Under the pieces are notes generated by a model. It worked only from the letters and a program-made list of their open reading frames with translations. It did not search any database and was not told where the DNA came from. The position numbers were made by a program, and so were the translations under genes. This document shows, piece after piece, positions 34,033-41,831 of a stretch of 64,000 nt of DNA. The stretch comes from Oceanispirochaeta crateris (lineage in GTDB: Bacteria; Spirochaetota; Spirochaetia; DSM-2461), in assembly GCF_008329965.1 (NCBI RefSeq), contig NZ_CP036150.1, forward strand, positions 2,666,001 to 2,730,000. The letters are read 5' to 3'. Within the stretch, counting starts at the first letter, position 1, and the number at the start of each line of letters is the position of its first letter.

Positions 34033-34115
34033 AAAAAATATCCATAGAATTCATGTCCTATTAACATAGAACCGAGCTGCCCACCTCTTGTGAAAACAGA
34101 CCTTATGCCTAGTTC

Positions 34116-34148
34116 TTGTATAAGTAAAAAACCATATTATATATACAA
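34116..34148 (+). promoter_or_regulatory. Promoter/operator of the photoreceptor-lipid operon
   Basis: TTGTAT (34116) and TATATA (34140-34145), 18 bases apart, form a good -35/-10 pair. The same bases are part of a perfect 7-bp inverted repeat TTGTATA (34116-34122)/TATACAA (34142-34148), which fits the TACA-containing sites reported for CarH/LitR-type regulators. A bound repressor would cover both promoter boxes. A second candidate promoter, TTGACA (34164-34169), 17 bases, GATTCA, would give a leaderless transcript. Confidence 0.5.
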
Positions 34149-34198
34149 ATATTGATAGTTTTCTTGACAACTCAATCTAAATAGCTGATTCATTATAT

Positions 34199-35125
34199 AT
34201 GAACAACTTCTATACTATTGGTATGGCAGCTCAATTGAGCGGATTAACAGACCTCTCTATCCGAACATGGGAGAACAGATACCAAGCCGTAAAACCTAAA
34301 AGAAGCTCTGGCAACCAGAGGTTATATTCAGATGAAGATGTTAAGAGGTTGTCCATATTAGCCAAAGGGGTAAAAACCGGACTCCGTATCAGTACATTAG
34401 TTCAAATGACCAATAAAGAGATTGAAGAATCGATTCAAAAAAAACTGGACAGGTATGAAAACAACTACATACACCTTGCCCATAAAGCTCTTAAGAACTT
34501 AGAACTAAATCAATTAAACGAGCTTTTTGAGTCGGCCTCCATAGAAATGGGAGTCATTCAGGCTATGGATGAAGTGATTTTTCCTTTTATGAATCAGTTG
34601 GGAGAACACTGGAACAAAGGAGAATTAAATATTTACCAGGAACACCTGGCTAGTGAAACAGTAAATTCATTTTTAAACAACCAGTTACGATCCTATCAAA
34701 GTTCAAAACAGAACCCTATTGCTCTAATTGCTACACTTCCAGGACAGGTTCATAATCTGGGAGCCGCGGCATCGGCTGTAACGGCCGCAATTGCCGGTTT
34801 TCATACACTAAATTTAGGCTACGAACTCCCCTCTGAAGAGTTGATTAAGATAACCAAAAAATCCCATGCCGCCGTGCTGGGCATCAGTATCGTATTCCCT
34901 GGAAATACAAGTCTTGTCAGAAAAGAGCTCGAAGTGCTTCATAAAAAAACTCCGGATCATTGCCGTTTGATTCTGGGAGGCTGTTCCTCAAGAGCCTTTA
35001 ATACAAAACAAGTCTTTCATGAGAGCCGTGATCTGCAGCACTTCAAAGAAATCCTGCTTGATTTTCGGAACGTGATTACAAACGGCCCAGAAAAGAATGA
35101 TTTATATAGAAACAAAAAGGAGTGA
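34199..35125 (+). CDS. CarH/LitR-like B12-binding MerR regulator, probable photoreceptor
   Basis: 308 residues. MerR helix-turn-helix at about 4-72 (YTIGMAAQLSG, RTWENRY, NQRLYSDEDVKRL). The four-helix cobalamin-cap region spans about 85-170 and the B12-binding fold about 172-290. W138, nine residues, then E148-H149 is the Wx9EH signature of adenosylcobalamin photoreceptors (Thermus CarH W131/E141/H142). H185 in GQVHNLG is placed like the cobalt ligand H177; the usual acidic residue before it is Gln183. GISIVFPGN and LILGGCSSRAF complete the fold. In known CarH, light breaks the Co-C bond and the repressor leaves DNA. It is the first gene of a lipid operon; the lipocalin gene starts 4 bases after its stop. 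Confidence 0.85.
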   Translation: MNNFYTIGMAAQLSGLTDLSIRTWENRYQAVKPKRSSGNQRLYSDEDVKRLSILAKGVKTGLRISTLVQMTNKEIEESIQKKLDRYENNYIHLAHKALKNLELNQLNELFESASIEMGVIQAMDEVIFPFMNQLGEHWNKGELNIYQEHLASETVNSFLNNQLRSYQSSKQNPIALIATLPGQVHNLGAAASAVTAAIAGFHTLNLGYELPSEELIKITKKSHAAVLGISIVFPGNTSLVRKELEVLHKKTPDHCRLILGGCSSRAFNTKQVFHESRDLQHFKEILLDFRNVITNGPEKNDLYRNKKE

Positions 35126-35129
35126 CCAC

Positions 35130-35669
35130 ATGAAAATATTCTTAGCATCAGTTATGACACTGATCATCCTCGCATCTTGTGCAACGACTAGAAAGGAGCC
35201 CTTTCAAGAAACGGAAGAGTACGTCGATATTGAAAGATTCACAGGAGACTGGTATGTCATCGCCCTTCTCCCGACGGCATTTGAGAAGGATGCAACCAAC
35301 GGCATTGAAAACTACAGCCTCACCGAAGAAGGAAATATCCGGGTACAATACACCTTTAGAAAAGATTCGCCCCAAGGAAAAGAAAAAATCATGACTCAGA
35401 AAGGGTGGATTTACAATAAGGAAAGCAATGCAGACTGGAGAGTCAGGCCATTGTGGCCTCTAAAACTCCCCTATTACATCTTGGAAATAGATGAAGATTA
35501 TCAATATACGGTGATCGGTACTAATAACTTCAAATACCTCTGGATCATGTCCAGAAATCCAAAAATGGATGAACAACTGATCCAGCAGATATCCAGTCGC
35601 ATGACTGACAGGGGCTACGATATGTCGGAAATTCAATATATGGAACAGAGTTGGGGATCAAATCAATGA
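35130..35669 (+). CDS. blc: Blc-type outer-membrane lipocalin lipoprotein
   Basis: 179 residues from the ATG at 35130, with AAGGAG 8 bases upstream. The signal peptide ends in ILASC, lipidated Cys17. The lipocalin GxW motif is in RFTGDWYVIALLPTAFEKDATN, followed by the bacterial-lipocalin pattern (NYSLTEEGNIRVQYTFRK; GWIYNKESNADWRVRP; PYYILEIDEDYQYTVIG; YLWIMSRNPKMDE). Blc-type lipocalins bind fatty acids and lysophospholipids and sit in the outer membrane. The end overlaps the FakA-FakB-like gene (ATGA). Lipocalins are recurrent members of LitR/CarH regulons (family knowledge). Confidence 0.93.
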   Translation: MKIFLASVMTLIILASCATTRKEPFQETEEYVDIERFTGDWYVIALLPTAFEKDATNGIENYSLTEEGNIRVQYTFRKDSPQGKEKIMTQKGWIYNKESNADWRVRPLWPLKLPYYILEIDEDYQYTVIGTNNFKYLWIMSRNPKMDEQLIQQISSRMTDRGYDMSEIQYMEQSWGSNQ

Positions 35670-37480
35670 TGAAGACAGTAAACGGTGTCCTCCTCTATAA
35701 TGCATTCCTAGCAGGGTACTTTAAAATAGACGGCAATCGTGAATATATGAACCAAATCAATGTTTTTCCCGTTAGAGACGGGGATACAGGCTCCAATATC
35801 GTTTCCATGTTCAGATTGACAACAGAGAATTTAGTATCCTGTAAATCTGTTGGAAAATTGATGAATAGGATTGCCCGCCTCTCACTGGAAGGGGCAAGGG
35901 GGAATTCTGGAATGATTATTTCTCAATTTCTCAACAGTATGTCCAAAAACATCTTCAATAAAGAAACAATATCACTCCCCGAGTTAGGAAAGATTTTACA
36001 AATGGCTGCCAATGATGCCTATGAAGCGGTTGAAAACCCTCAGGAAGGGACAATTTTGACTGTAATGAAAATATGGGCAGATTCTTTTTTAGAAAATTCC
36101 GCAAAAGATATGAACCTTGAAGACATCATGAATGAAGCCCTTGTAAAAGCAAAAGAGGCTCTGGATAAGACACAGGAGCAACTATCTGTTTTAAAAGAAA
36201 ACAATGTTGTCGATGCAGGAGCCTGGGGTTTTGTCTGTTTCCTGGAAGGTATCGCAGGCTTAGGCCATAAGGGGATTCTCCCGCTAGCAGTAAGAAAAAC
36301 ACTCAGGAATCCTGATATTCCCATGATAGAGCCAACAAAACAAAGTGTTCACATATTCAATAAGGAGATTAAATACAGGTACTGCACAGAAGTGCTCATG
36401 GCAGATGTCACCACAGGACAGGAAGAATTGAAGGAAATTCTCAATCCTCTGGGAGATTCTCTGATTGTCACTTCCGGATTGGAAAGAACACGCATCCATA
36501 TCCATACAAACAAGCCACAAAATGTGATAGCAGAGATGTATAAAGTAGGCAGAATTATTCAGCAAAAGGCAGATGATATGATCAGGCAGGAACAGGTGGT
36601 TAATAAACGGATTGCCAAAGTTGCAGTGGTCACAGACTCAATAGCCGATTTATCCCATGAAATACTGGATCAGTTCCAAATTCATGTCATAAATCTTCAC
36701 CTCCACTGGGATGATGAGGAGTATTTAGACAGACTCACAATAAGACCTGATGATTTTTATACAATGCAATCCTACAGAACATCATTTCCAAGTAGTTCCT
36801 TCCCCCCCGGCCGTGAAGTAGAAATGTACTATGAATACCTCTTAGATCACTATGAGGCTTTAATTGTTCTTTCAGTAGCGAAAGAGTTAAGCGGAACATG
36901 GCAGCGGATGAAACTCTCGGCTGAAAAATTTAATACGAAACAACAAAAAATTGCTGTAGTTGATACTTGTCTGAATTCCGTTGCCCAGGGATTGCTTGTC
37001 AAAATGATTGCTCAAAAAGCAGCAGAGGGTTCCAGTTTAAATGAGCTTGTAGAGGCAGCGGAAGAGCTTAAAAGCCGGATCAGAATATTCGTCATGGTTA
37101 AAACCTTCAAATTCATGATCAAGGGAGGGAGGGTAAGCCCTCTCAAGGGGTTCATTGCCAAGATTCTGAACCTCAAACCCATCGTATCCCTTGATCAAAA
37201 TGGAAAAGGTGTTGCGTTTGAGAAATCATTCTCATCCAGAGGACTGATGAAAAAGATAACTCGCCTGGTGAGTACAATAGAGGGAGACAACGGCATAGAA
37301 GAATACGCCATAGTACACGCTTCAGCCAGGGAACGCGCCGAAAAATGGGGAGATTTCATACATGAAATAACCCGCAAAAGTCCCTCTTATATCACAGATA
37401 TATCCCCTATCGTCGGAATGCATTCAGGCAAAGGTGCCATAGCCATAGGTTTAGTAGAAAAAAAGAAAAGGAGATCATGA
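35666..37480 (+). CDS. Single-chain fatty-acid kinase: FakA-like (DhaL) plus DegV/FakB fusion
   Basis: 604 residues from the ATG at 35666 (overlapping the lipocalin stop; 35669 is also possible). Residues about 5-200 are a DhaL/FakA ATP-binding domain: NVFPVRDGDTGSN (metal-binding Asp residues 38 and 40), EGARGNSGMIISQ and NNVVDAGAWG. A FakA-type linker domain follows (YRYCTEVLM; RIHIHTNKP). From about 318 to the end is a DegV/FakB fatty-acid-binding domain: VVTDSIADLS, LSVAKELSGTW, DTCLNSVAQG, MIKGGRVSPL and LKPIVSLDQNG. Separate FakA and FakB convert free fatty acids to acyl-phosphate, the substrate of PlsY, which is encoded two genes downstream. A DegV fusion is unusual relative to the Firmicute two-protein system. 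Confidence 0.82.
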   Translation: MMKTVNGVLLYNAFLAGYFKIDGNREYMNQINVFPVRDGDTGSNIVSMFRLTTENLVSCKSVGKLMNRIARLSLEGARGNSGMIISQFLNSMSKNIFNKETISLPELGKILQMAANDAYEAVENPQEGTILTVMKIWADSFLENSAKDMNLEDIMNEALVKAKEALDKTQEQLSVLKENNVVDAGAWGFVCFLEGIAGLGHKGILPLAVRKTLRNPDIPMIEPTKQSVHIFNKEIKYRYCTEVLMADVTTGQEELKEILNPLGDSLIVTSGLERTRIHIHTNKPQNVIAEMYKVGRIIQQKADDMIRQEQVVNKRIAKVAVVTDSIADLSHEILDQFQIHVINLHLHWDDEEYLDRLTIRPDDFYTMQSYRTSFPSSSFPPGREVEMYYEYLLDHYEALIVLSVAKELSGTWQRMKLSAEKFNTKQQKIAVVDTCLNSVAQGLLVKMIAQKAAEGSSLNELVEAAEELKSRIRIFVMVKTFKFMIKGGRVSPLKGFIAKILNLKPIVSLDQNGKGVAFEKSFSSRGLMKKITRLVSTIEGDNGIEEYAIVHASARERAEKWGDFIHEITRKSPSYITDISPIVGMHSGKGAIAIGLVEKKKRRS

Positions 37481-38283
37481 TGTTTTTTGAATTTGATATT
37501 TACAATATTGTCTCATCACTGCTGATAAGCATGCTTATACAGGCTGTATTCTTCACAATTGCCTATGCCAATAAGACAGATAAGGTAACCGATTTTTCCT
37601 ACAGTCTCTCATTTATAAGCATGACAGCCTTCTTCACTGTAACGAACAAAGCATACAACCCCATACAATTGATAATGGCGACCTTCATTATCCTTTGGGG
37701 CCTCAGACTGGGAGCATACCTTCTAACACGAATCATTCGTATTGGAAAGGATAAACGCTTTGATGACAAAAGAGAAAACTTCATAAGATTTCTTGGTTTT
37801 TGGATACTTCAGGCATCTGCGGTATGGCTGGTAATGATGCCTTCGGTTGTATTTCTGACACGTCCCGCTCCAGAATCCATTGGTGTTTTCACCATAGTGG
37901 GGATCGTATTTTGGATCTTGGGATTTATCATAGAAGTGATCAGTGATCATCAAAAATTTCAATTCAAATCAAAGGGAGAGAATGATGGACGTTGGATTGA
38001 GGAAGGACTGTGGAAGTACTCAAGGCATCCTAACTATTTTGGTGAAACCATCCTTTGGTGGGCCCTATTCATTATGGCAATCCCCTCTCTCAATGCTTGG
38101 CTGTACCTCACTGTGATTGGCCCCATATTTATCACCCTTCTACTGCTTTTTGTTTCAGGAATTCCCTTACTGGAAAAGAGTGCAGAGAAACAATATGGTT
38201 TGAATCCTGAATATCAGGACTATAAGAGGAGAACCAGTATTTTCGTCCTCCTTCCTCCCCAAAAAAAGGTAATCCATGATTGA
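37477..38283 (+). CDS. DUF1295 (steroid 5-alpha-reductase-like) membrane protein
   Basis: 268 residues and about seven membrane helices. The C-terminal signature SKGENDGRWIEEGLWKYSRHPNYFGETILWW is typical of DUF1295 and of the related isoprenylcysteine methyltransferase/5-alpha-reductase fold; the RHPNYFGE motif binds the cofactor in relatives. The N-terminus VTDFSYSLSF is also family-typical. The reaction is unknown; a lipid or isoprenoid substrate is likely. The start overlaps the preceding stop and follows AAAAGGAGATC. DUF1295 genes recur in light-induced LitR regulons (family knowledge). Confidence 0.88.
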   Translation: MMFFEFDIYNIVSSLLISMLIQAVFFTIAYANKTDKVTDFSYSLSFISMTAFFTVTNKAYNPIQLIMATFIILWGLRLGAYLLTRIIRIGKDKRFDDKRENFIRFLGFWILQASAVWLVMMPSVVFLTRPAPESIGVFTIVGIVFWILGFIIEVISDHQKFQFKSKGENDGRWIEEGLWKYSRHPNYFGETILWWALFIMAIPSLNAWLYLTVIGPIFITLLLLFVSGIPLLEKSAEKQYGLNPEYQDYKRRTSIFVLLPPQKKVIHD

Positions 38284-38328
38284 AGTATTCATAGGGATGA
38301 TATTCAAAACTCACGAGGAGGCCGTAAA

Positions 38329-38994
38329 ATGCTCAACTTATGGATGATAGCTCTTTTAAGCTACCTTGTAGGATCGTTTCCCACAAGTTTACTCATGGGC
38401 AGGATTTTCAGACAGGGACTCGATATTAGAGATCACGGAAGCGGCAATATGGGAGCCACGAATTCGTTCAGGATCTTCGGGTGGAGATTAGGCCTCACTG
38501 TTGCTTTTATCGATATATTTAAGGGCTTTGCAGTCGTTCATTGGATTGCTCCATTAGCAGTGTTTGAGAATTCCTATCCCGGTAATGTCTTATTCATTAT
38601 GGCAACTCTCGCAGTCGTCCTGGGACATATTTTTCCCGTTTTTTCGGGGTTTAGAGGAGGAAAAGGATTCGGAGCCGCTGTCGGTGCTGTCATATCTTAT
38701 TTTCCCCTGGCCGCTCCTTTTTGTTTATTGATCTTTTTTATAACACTGGGATTCACAGGTTATGTATCCATATGTGCCTTAGCAGCATCTGCAGCCCTAC
38801 CCTTCTTGTATGCCCTCATCACAGGCTTACAGGGAAACATGATTGATCCTACCATTCTGACCTTTTTTATTTTGATTTTCCTGGTTGTTGCCATAAGTGT
38901 CAGAAAAAGGGTGAAGCTTTATTTAAATGGTGAAGTTGAAATATTCAAAGCAGCAAGAATATTCAGGCCCGGCGGGGGTAGAGATGGGGAATAA
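38329..38994 (+). CDS. plsY: Acyl-phosphate:glycerol-3-phosphate acyltransferase PlsY
   Basis: 221 residues with five or more membrane helices. All three PlsY motifs are present: GSFPTSLLMGR, then DIRDHGSGNMGATNSFRIFGW, and GHIFPVFSGFRGGKGFGAAVG; SVRKRVKLYLNGE ends the catalytic core. The enzyme uses acyl-phosphate to make lysophosphatidic acid, the first step of phospholipid synthesis. GAGGAGG precedes the ATG. Its presence with a fatty-acid kinase in one operon completes the route from free fatty acid to phospholipid precursor. The gap from the DUF1295 gene is 45 bases. Confidence 0.96.
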   Translation: MLNLWMIALLSYLVGSFPTSLLMGRIFRQGLDIRDHGSGNMGATNSFRIFGWRLGLTVAFIDIFKGFAVVHWIAPLAVFENSYPGNVLFIMATLAVVLGHIFPVFSGFRGGKGFGAAVGAVISYFPLAAPFCLLIFFITLGFTGYVSICALAASAALPFLYALITGLQGNMIDPTILTFFILIFLVVAISVRKRVKLYLNGEVEIFKAARIFRPGGGRDGE

Positions 38995-39694
38995 ATTTAC
39001 ATTCATATGTTTACTGCTCAGTTTGATTTTCATAGGTCATGTTTCGGCCAATGAAGTATTCAATGCCCGAATATATGTGAAGGGAGACAGGGACACTATC
39101 GTATTCTACTACGATTCCGAAAAGACAATACAGGGAGATGATGTGATACTGTCCCATACATATAAGACTCCCGAAGGGGAGGTTTTTGCCCGGGAAACAC
39201 TAATATTGCATGAGGGAGAATTCTCGGTACATGAAACCAGCTTCCCTATTCTTGATGAGTATTCCAAACAGGTGCGGGATGAAGAGGGAATGACGACATC
39301 ATTCAAAAGTAACAACAAAGAGAAATCAAAGGCTATCAAGGTCCCGGAAAACCTTATTTTTGGACCGACTCAGCAAGATTTCATTACGGAAAATTTAGAG
39401 AGCCTCAAAGAAGGAGAAAAGTTAACTTTTTCTCTTCCTGTCCCTCAATTTTTGACAACCGTAAAATTCACCTTAAAAAAGATTGAGAACAAGACATTAG
39501 ATAAACCTGGCATGATCACTTTACAGATGAAATCAAACAACCCTTTTTTATGGTTTATTGCCAAACCGATACACTTCCTCATTAATGAGGAGAACAGTCT
39601 TATTCAGGAGATTCATGGTCCGACGATCTTAAAAATAAAAGTCAATGAGAAATGGGAGTTCTTCGATTCAGAAATCTATTTCAAATACCTTTAG
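38984..39694 (+). CDS. Exported protein of unknown function, last gene of the lipid operon
   Basis: 236 residues from the ATG at 38984, which overlaps plsY by 11 bases and follows GGCGGGGGT. A signal peptide (about 1-22, FTFICLLLSLIFIGHVSA) precedes a beta-rich, charged domain with no recognised motif; features include YYDSEKTIQGDDV, a Lys/Glu-rich middle (about 110-130) and a hydrophobic stretch NPFLWFIAKPIHF near 195. A periplasmic lipid-handling role is only a guess from context. It faces an AraC gene, tail to tail. Confidence 0.75.
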   Translation: MGNKFTFICLLLSLIFIGHVSANEVFNARIYVKGDRDTIVFYYDSEKTIQGDDVILSHTYKTPEGEVFARETLILHEGEFSVHETSFPILDEYSKQVRDEEGMTTSFKSNNKEKSKAIKVPENLIFGPTQQDFITENLESLKEGEKLTFSLPVPQFLTTVKFTLKKIENKTLDKPGMITLQMKSNNPFLWFIAKPIHFLINEENSLIQEIHGPTILKIKVNEKWEFFDSEIYFKYL

Positions 39695-39707: not shown

Positions 39708-40649
39708 TCATTGAACCTCAAAAGACGCGTTTTCATCAGAGGATTTTCGCCCTAAATCTCTCACAGTCTCCCTATACGCAGAGGGAGTGCAGTCAAAGGC
39801 CTCCCTGAAAAACCGGTTAAAACGGGAGATATCAGAAAATCCGCAGTCGTGGCTGATGGTCAGGATCTTATCATTACTCATCCTTAGTCTTTGTACCGCT
39901 GCGGCAAGCCGCCTCTGCTTTAGATATTCCCCGGTACTCATCCCTGTAAACTCCTTAAATCTCCGGCAGAGATTGGCCGGATTCAAGCCGCTTAACAAGC
40001 ACAGGTCATCTAGACGGATGGAACTTGTGAAGTTCTTTTCCAGATAGGTACACACCTTCTCAATCCTGCCGCTATACCCGGAGGCAGGCAAATCTTCCCG
40101 AACCGGTGCGGCCCGGCACAATTCAATGAGGAAGAGCCGAAACAGGGCCTGAATAGCCGCTTCCTGACCGGCTACCTCCCGATTCTGTTCTTCAAGAATC
40201 ATCATGAGGAGGCTCTTTATTTTATCCGTATCTCCAACCTTCAAATGACGAATGCTGTTAAACCGGTTCCCCAGCTCAGGATGGAGGGGAATCAATTCAT
40301 AGAGCCTGGAGGCCAGTGGCTCCGGGAGAACTGGCAGAGGATACAATGCGGGTTTCAAGTAGATGTTCATAAGTTCCACAGGGCCATCAGGAGTTCTCAG
40401 AGAGTGGTACTGTCTATCATTAACGATGGTAAGTCCGCCCATGGATTCATCAAAGCTGCTTTCAGCTGTCACATGGCGGAAACTCCCCTGGAGAACAAAG
40501 AGGATTTCAATAAAATCATGGCCATGAAAATCATGCTGATTCTGTTCAAATGCCGGAAAGTATTCGAGGGCCAAACCTGTTCGATCCAGACGGTGTTCTG
40601 TCTGACCGAGGTTGGGCTTTTTGATTCCCTGTAAATATTCGCTCTGCAT
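39708..40649 (-). CDS. AraC-family transcriptional regulator
   Basis: 313 residues from the ATG at 40649; an upstream in-frame TTG (40667) is less likely. An N-terminal cupin-like sensor (HDFHGHDFIEILFVLQGSF, with His pairs) and a C-terminal double helix-turn-helix (SIRLDDLCLLSGLNPANLCRRFKEFTGMSTGEYLKQRRL; ILTISHDCGFSDISRFNRFFREAF). It is divergent from the URO-D-family gene, which it probably controls. Many cupin-type AraC proteins respond to sugars or small aromatics. Confidence 0.92.
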   Translation of the reverse strand: MQSEYLQGIKKPNLGQTEHRLDRTGLALEYFPAFEQNQHDFHGHDFIEILFVLQGSFRHVTAESSFDESMGGLTIVNDRQYHSLRTPDGPVELMNIYLKPALYPLPVLPEPLASRLYELIPLHPELGNRFNSIRHLKVGDTDKIKSLLMMILEEQNREVAGQEAAIQALFRLFLIELCRAAPVREDLPASGYSGRIEKVCTYLEKNFTSSIRLDDLCLLSGLNPANLCRRFKEFTGMSTGEYLKQRRLAAAVQRLRMSNDKILTISHDCGFSDISRFNRFFREAFDCTPSAYRETVRDLGRKSSDENASFEVQ

Positions 40650-40775: not shown

Positions 40776-41831
40776 ATGAATGCAAGAGAACGCGTCTTAG
40801 CCGTATTGAATAGAGAAAAACCTGACAGGGTCCCCGTGGATATCTGGCTGGTTCCCGAATTGGTAGAACAGTTCAAAAAAGAACTGAATGTTGAAGATGA
40901 ATTGGATATTTACCGCAAACTGGATGTAGATAAAATCGTATGGCTGGGGATACCTTACAAGGGTGTCATTTTAAAAGATCCCAACGAACATCAGGAGATC
41001 AATCACTGGGGGGTCAAATTTGAGGCAGTCCAGGCTAATCAGGGCGTGGAATATGGGGAAGTCTCCTTTAACCCGCTCAAGGGACTCGAAACCTTAGAAG
41101 AACTGGATGCCTATCCCTGGCCCAGTCCGGATGATTTCGACTATGTAACAGCCGCAGCAGAGGCCAAAGAACTGGCAAAAGAGTTTGTAACCCTGGGACC
41201 ATGGGTTTCCCTTTTTGAGGTGTATTGTCAAATGCGGGGCCTGGAGGATGCTTTGATGGACACTGTGATGAATCCTGAATTCCTTCACAAAGCTCTGGAC
41301 TATATAGCCGATTCTCAAGGGGAGATGGTACGCCGCTTTCTGGAAGCTGCAGAAGGTGCTATCGATCTGGTCTTTCTCAGTGATGACATGGGTTCACAGA
41401 CAAGCCTTTTAATGTCTCCCGATTCATTTGATGAGTTCCTCTTTCCAAGGATGAAAAAGTGGTGTGATATGATTCATTCCTATGGAGCAAGGGTCTTGTT
41501 TCACACAGATGGAGCTTCCGAACCCATAATCCCTCGTTTAATTGAAGCAGGTGTGGATGTACTGAATCCGATACAGCATGTCTGTACCGGAATGGATTGC
41601 AAATCGATCAAGGCTAAGTATGGAGATAAGATCATTTTCCATGGCGGTGTGGAAAATCAGAAGATCCTCCCCTTCGGCACAGCAGAAGAAGTGGCTCAGG
41701 AAACAAAAATGTGCCTTGAAGAACTAGGCCCTCAGGGTTATCTCCCCTGCTCCTGTCACTTTGCCCAGGCGGGAACGCCTATTGCAAATGTAATGGCGCT
41801 CATTGAGACAGTTCAGAATTTCTCTTTATAG
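40776..41831 (+). CDS. URO-D/MtaA-superfamily protein
   Basis: 351 residues, with the N-terminus NARERVLAVLNREKPDRVPVDIW and the barrel motifs LSDDMGSQTSLLMSPDSFDEFLFPRMKKW, FHTDGASEPIIPRLIEAGVDVLNPIQ and FHGGVENQKILPFGT. It belongs to the uroporphyrinogen-decarboxylase-like superfamily, whose non-haem members are corrinoid methyltransferases (MtaA/CmuA) or enzymes of unknown reaction. The zinc-type His-x-Cys of MtaA is not evident. Regulation by the divergent AraC protein is likely. TTGGAG precedes the ATG. Confidence 0.85.
   Translation: MNARERVLAVLNREKPDRVPVDIWLVPELVEQFKKELNVEDELDIYRKLDVDKIVWLGIPYKGVILKDPNEHQEINHWGVKFEAVQANQGVEYGEVSFNPLKGLETLEELDAYPWPSPDDFDYVTAAAEAKELAKEFVTLGPWVSLFEVYCQMRGLEDALMDTVMNPEFLHKALDYIADSQGEMVRRFLEAAEGAIDLVFLSDDMGSQTSLLMSPDSFDEFLFPRMKKWCDMIHSYGARVLFHTDGASEPIIPRLIEAGVDVLNPIQHVCTGMDCKSIKAKYGDKIIFHGGVENQKILPFGTAEEVAQETKMCLEELGPQGYLPCSCHFAQAGTPIANVMALIETVQNFSL

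Follow-up and report, generated by a model that had tools for sequence, protein, structure and literature searches.

A CarH-type cobalamin regulator at the head of a candidate fatty-acid salvage operon in Oceanispirochaeta crateris

CarH-type photoreceptors are known mainly for turning on carotenoid synthesis. The CarH, or class I LitR, proteins of Thermus thermophilus (structures 3whp and 5c8d), Bacillus megaterium (LitR) and Myxococcus (CarH) combine a MerR-type DNA-binding head with a four-helix bundle and a Rossmann cobalamin domain; they contain the Wx9EH motif and a lower-ligand histidine, and their genes stand at the head of an operon that they probably control. All of this is shared by a regulator of Oceanispirochaeta crateris encoded in the window analysed here (64,000 bp, positions 2,666,001 to 2,730,000 of contig NZ_CP036150.1). 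Its neighbours, however, include an acyl-phosphate kinase and PlsY: the six genes at 34199-39694 of the window, all on the plus strand, encode the MerR-type regulator, the lipocalin Blc, a fusion of fatty-acid kinase FakA with FakB (FakAB), a DUF1295 protein, PlsY and an exported protein. We consider it somewhat probable that these genes form a regulon of the CarH (class I LitR) type that drives fatty-acid salvage into membrane lipid.

Three other described systems are close to this locus. The class II LitR/PplR regulon of Pseudomonas (PhrB, UfaM, FolE, CryB, RudS) responds to light and comprises genes for lipid modification, photolyase and RudS (PMC9758184, PMC11417400), and photolyase and RudS genes likewise occur in the lipid clusters of two relatives of O. 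crateris; however, the cobalamin-binding region of class II LitR is incomplete, and the protein acts through LOV proteins. The SignatureFinder proteins of Yu et al. (PMC11796333) also carry light-responsive cobalamin-binding domains (CBDs) fused to helix-turn-helix heads, but the main text of that paper names no XRE, spirochaetes or target operons, whereas here a group of XRE-CBD proteins is tied to the lipid module. In the incorporation of exogenous fatty acids by Firmicutes, FakA and FakB make acyl-phosphate from free fatty acid and PlsY uses it; the O. crateris system differs in the fusion of FakA with FakB, the lost C-terminal domain of FakA (FakA_C), the lack of PlsX and the cobalamin-sensor regulator. 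Among the papers searched, none joined CarH or a cobalamin photoreceptor to fatty-acid kinase, PlsY or DUF1295.

Profile matches divide the regulator into MerR_1, B12-binding_2 and B12-binding domains. The N-terminal MerR-type helix-turn-helix (PF13411, E 9.9e-13) is followed by the B12-binding_2 helix bundle (PF02607, 37.6 bits, above the cut-off) and the B12-binding Rossmann domain, which at 31.4 bits lies slightly below the cut-off of 32.1 (PF02310). The nearest solved structures are 3whp and 5c8d of Thermus LitR/CarH, and the alignment to 5c8d extends to residue 232. The motifs G135xxW138, E148-H149 (Wx9EH), G182xxH185 and G207xxxP211 make up the complete GxxW, EH, GxxH, GxxxP signature of light-responsive cobalamin domains, which was tested on new proteins by its authors (PMC11796333). 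The original prediction, made from the DNA alone, had pointed to an intact Wx9EH (W138, E148, H149) and a ligand-type His185, and these residues were verified in the protein sequence. Its assignment of the regulator to the CarH photosensor type is supported by the signature and the Thermus structure matches; such a protein would bind adenosylcobalamin (AdoCbl) and respond to light. The six genes of the predicted tight operon, at the positions given, were borne out by Pfam and NCBIfam matches and by the gene junctions.

The host genome, a single contig of 4.01 Mb that includes the window, encodes one MerR-cobalamin regulator, and a search of it for XRE-type sensors at E 1e-20 gave no match other than this protein. 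Two further weak cobalamin-domain matches in the genome, at 2124570-2124977 and 3838542-3838970 (open frames of 226 and 874 aa), are probably a corrinoid protein and a methionine-synthase-like protein.

A survey of 118 related genomes found the FakAB fusion, either complete or partial, in 14 relatives of the same family. PlsY is encoded in the same cluster in 13 of them, and in the 14th (G002) the contig ends; DUF1295 is also in the cluster in 11, Blc lies upstream of the fusion in seven, and the exported protein is intact in four, while the G012 module contains what reads as a broken remnant of its gene. In the common layout, an optional regulator, blc and fakAB are divergent from the genes for the exported protein, DUF1295 and PlsY, and only in the window genome are all module genes on one strand. 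Conservation of the six-gene order as such was therefore rejected; it is the lipid module that is conserved.

The cluster of seven of these 14 relatives includes a regulator in which the same kind of cobalamin sensor is joined to an XRE (HTH_3, Cro/C1) head. Together with the 13 clusters that hold both the fusion and PlsY, this recurrence exceeds what chance would give. Ten columns, the photosensor residues G135, W138, E148, H149, H185, G200, G207, P211, S230 and G261, are invariant between the MerR regulator and the XRE proteins, although the Gly of GxxH is replaced by Ser in some of the latter, and CarH sensor structures rank first in a PDB search with one XRE protein. In the maximum-likelihood tree of the sensors, the window regulator groups with the MerR-CarH proteins of two congeners (99/97), and the MerR clade (100/100) is separate from all XRE rows. 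This rules out the window regulator being the same gene as the module-adjacent regulators of relatives. That a single type of sensor, carried by two unrelated kinds of DNA-binding head, serves one lipid module argues most strongly for a functional link. MerR-CarH orthologues of relatives are mostly located elsewhere, divergent from a fasciclin-domain gene (five loci); in G001, the orthologue has the RecQ neighbour that is also present in the window. An intermediate arrangement is seen in congener G003, with fasciclin, MerR-CarH, fakAB, XRE regulator, DUF1295 and plsY as neighbours. The simplest reading is that the window lineage lost the XRE regulator and fasciclin, and MerR-CarH took over the module.

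The module-adjacent CBD regulators do not form an exclusive clade, as XRE regulators adjoining RND pumps fall among them. XRE-sensor regulators were also found beside RND efflux operons (HlyD-type plus AcrB-type) at nine loci, and at one of these, L213, a tocopherol-cyclase-like gene (L213:5823-6770) lies beside the regulator as well.

The enzymes of the module appear intact. The fusion joins the FakA kinase and middle domains to FakB/DegV and keeps the FakA motifs DGDTG, GARGNSG, C239 and H277/H279 and the FakB motifs LSGTW, GRVS and H585. In Staphylococcus aureus FakA, in which the catalytic Cys and His are known, the kinase and middle domains are enough for activity (PMC9136124), so by analogy the fusion can probably work without FakA_C. 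PlsY (PF02660, 140 bits, above the cut-off) retains GSFPTS, GSGNMGATN and GGKG. Searches of the host genome found exactly one PlsY, seven PlsC-type acyltransferase matches and two ketoacyl synthases, and no PlsX, while positive controls matched; PlsX was not found in 109 of the 118 related genomes either. Given the lack of PlsX and the single PlsY, no supplier of acyl-phosphate to PlsY other than the fused kinase is evident, barring an unrecognised one; this strengthens the acyl-phosphate route from FakAB to PlsY put forward in the original prediction. Ordinary phospholipid synthesis probably runs on the PlsC-type acyltransferases. Beside its fused module, G004 has an additional set of split genes, for PlsY, a full-length FakA that includes FakA_C, and DegV (L051:12366-15591).

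Gene neighbourhoods in relatives suggest light as the signal. The genomes of Spirochaetaceae bacterium SZUA-368 and G009 contain blc, fakAB, photolyase, RudS, plsY, XRE-sensor and RND pump genes in one cluster, with blc of G009 beyond the contig end, and light-responsive operons that hold RudS genes together with photolyases have been reported (PMC11417400). Another spirochaete family has XRE-sensor genes directly next to photolyase-like genes in three genomes, recognised by Pfam in two cases and by resemblance in the third. A lipocalin gene is light-induced in Chryseobacterium lacus (PMC7064467). The singlet-oxygen-induced genes of Chlamydomonas include DUF1295 and fasciclin genes (PMC4067076), and fasciclin genes flank the CarH orthologues of relatives. 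The predicted pairing of a CarH-type sensor with the lipid module recurs in sister genomes, where the sensor has another type of DNA-binding head, twice together with photolyase and RudS. The oxidative and light-stress type of genes near the module in relatives (fasciclin, RND pumps, photolyase) would also suit a regulator that senses oxidation or redox change at cobalamin caused by reactive or singlet oxygen, in an operon that repairs peroxidised lipid, with light as only one source; the singlet-oxygen induction of DUF1295 and fasciclin genes in Chlamydomonas would suit it too. We regard this explanation as very improbable, and no direct evidence of dark redox sensing by CarH-type sensors was found.

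The CarH-type regulon that we favour would work as follows. In the dark, the AdoCbl-loaded regulator would oligomerise and repress its own operon; green or blue light would break the Co-C bond to the adenosyl ligand, or AdoCbl shortage would withhold that ligand, and repression would be released. Blc, as an outer-membrane lipocalin, and the exported protein would deal with envelope free fatty acids or lysolipids, FakAB would bind and phosphorylate the fatty acid, and PlsY would move the acyl group from acyl-phosphate to glycerol-3-phosphate, with no PlsX-fed alternative in the host genome. DUF1295 is a probable modifier or reductase of the lipid or fatty acid, and the induced proteins as a set would salvage and repair lipids. 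In this scheme, the binding of AdoCbl, the response to light, the repression and the substrate are what we infer; damaged fatty acids, also named in the original prediction, are at most a possible substrate. Judging from the sequences, control of PlsX-independent acyl transfer by light or B12 is likely. More tentatively, the cobalamin photoreceptor may gate the sole acyl-phosphate/PlsY branch of a genome without PlsX, giving light- or B12-switched lipid repair independent of de novo synthesis, and in the family an XRE/Cro-C1 repressor with a CarH sensor may be a distinct photoreceptor class that does the same job.

Several observations weigh against the proposed regulon. In the regulator, Asn139 stands where Thermus CarH has His after Trp, and the bis-His state that follows illumination would not be expected to form in the same way. 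With the NCBIfam CarH equivalog model the protein reaches 105.5 bits, short of the cut-off of 400, and we therefore class it as CarH-type and not as an equivalog. Upstream, TTGTATAAGTA at 34116 and TATATATACAA at 34138 each fit nAnnTnnACAn, the 11-bp unit of the direct repeats that overlap the promoter in CarH operators; they lie on opposite strands, about as many would be expected by chance in 166 bp of AT-rich DNA, and the operator evidence that they give is weak.

Searches of the host genome found neither a photolyase nor a fasciclin, which favours the supply of AdoCbl, not light, as the signal: the operon would be derepressed on AdoCbl shortage, a metabolic cue in an organism rarely meeting light. 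A PduO-type, AdoCbl-forming adenosyltransferase is present in the genome, so cobalamin is convertible to AdoCbl and B12 supply could be sensed, and SZUA-368, which has the XRE version, is a metagenome-assembled genome from a deep-sea hydrothermal site. However, the regulator has retained the adenosyl-capping Wx9EH and the light signature, the SZUA-368 cluster itself holds photolyase and RudS, and known proteins of the CarH type are photoreceptors. We consider AdoCbl supply as the sole cue unlikely, though a serious candidate.

The original prediction had also proposed looking for the gene order in other spirochaetes. The exact six-gene order occurs only in the window genome, and seven family relatives carry the module without any adjacent cobalamin sensor; the regulation in relatives proved to be related, so that the prediction's refuting condition, which asked for unrelated regulation as well as a unique order, does not apply. 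The first two facts suit a constitutive envelope-lipid housekeeping module beside which the regulator was placed by chance rearrangement, controlling only itself or other genes, and so does the occurrence of FakAB and DUF1295 in many phyla without a cobalamin regulator. This appears improbable in view of the closely packed junctions, where start and stop codons overlap, and of the XRE-type CarH sensors attached to the same module in seven relatives.

Other upstream elements were noted as well. TTGACA is present at 34164. Upstream of the window CarH gene and four orthologues, TGTATA elements number 11 versus 1.3 in shuffles, an about eight-fold excess for a pattern chosen after inspection. No promoter is claimed, as a simple sigma-70 scan gave fewer promoter-like matches than shuffled sequence. 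An AT-rich palindrome-like ATAGTAATTATTAT-like element was found at several module promoters of XRE-sensor genomes (five loci) and also where the XRE gene lies elsewhere (G007, G008, G012), but not in the MerR-CarH genomes or the window. The TGTATA and ATAGTAATTATTAT-like elements are leads, not proof. An Rfam scan of the window detected no riboswitch.

The features are listed in Table 1. The regulator and blc are separated by 4 nt, ATGA overlaps occur at both the blc/fakAB and fakAB/DUF1295 junctions, 45 nt separate DUF1295 from plsY, and plsY and the exported-protein gene overlap by 11 nt; a convergent AraC-type gene at 39708 ends the operon. The GC content of the operon is 0.405 versus 0.449 for the window, but 13% of window segments are equally low, and horizontal transfer is not accepted on this evidence. 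A little downstream, beyond the AraC-type gene, a URO-D family protein (PF01208, 101 bits; 40776-41831) is possibly a corrinoid-methyltransferase-type enzyme.

Table 1. Features of the O. crateris operon region (window coordinates)
Feature	Position	Strand	Basis
Candidate promoter/operator, intergenic	34033..34198	+	Sequence elements
MerR-type regulator with CarH/LitR-type cobalamin-binding sensor, 308 aa	34199..35125	+	Pfam, motifs, structure search, tree
blc, bacterial lipocalin lipoprotein, Lipocalin_2, lipobox ASCA	35130..35669	+	Domain match and motif
Fused fatty-acid kinase (Dak2 + FakA_M + DegV), FakA_C absent	35666..37480 (start 35666 or 35669)	+	Domains, motifs
DUF1295 integral membrane protein, steroid-5-alpha-reductase fold	37477..38283	+	Pfam, AlphaFold, Foldseek
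plsY, acyl-phosphate:glycerol-3-phosphate acyltransferase	38329..38994	+	Pfam and motifs; sole PlsY of genome
Exported beta-rich protein, module-conserved	38984..39694	+	No Pfam match; weak DUF1849/LolA-like similarity

The AlphaFold model of DUF1295 has a predicted local distance difference test score (pLDDT) of 94, and its top Foldseek matches are the steroid 5-alpha-reductases 7bw1 and 7c83, with a probability of 1.00 but an E value of about 0.1. By this model, the protein is probably a steroid-5-alpha-reductase-like membrane enzyme acting on a lipid or fatty acid. The exported protein is modelled as a beta-rich fold (pLDDT 83), and its weak similarity is to DUF1849 and LolA-like periplasmic proteins.

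The FakAB fusion itself cannot be considered new: it is present in Clostridia, Lactobacillales, Bacteroidales, Aminicenantes, Neomarinimicrobiota and others. DUF1295 lies immediately downstream of it in 40 of 80 loci examined (Firmicutes, Bacteroidota, Thermotogae and others), and the FakAB-DUF1295 pair is an old general partnership, widespread in bacteria and already known. None of the non-spirochaete loci examined has an adjoining CarH-type sensor, one Paenibacillus gene being about 2 kb off, so cobalamin control appears to be a spirochaete addition. It is the regulatory wiring of known parts that is new; neither the sensor nor the enzyme is a new kind.

CarH-type sensors are tied here, on two DNA-binding heads, to phospholipid made from free fatty acids. 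If this is true, membrane lipid salvage in non-phototrophic spirochaetes would come under the control of light or B12, PlsY would have a role in PlsX-less bacteria, and the widespread, unexplained pair of FakAB fusion and DUF1295 would gain a testable physiological setting. The sensors thus point to membrane repair under the rule of light or B12 status in O. crateris and its relatives.

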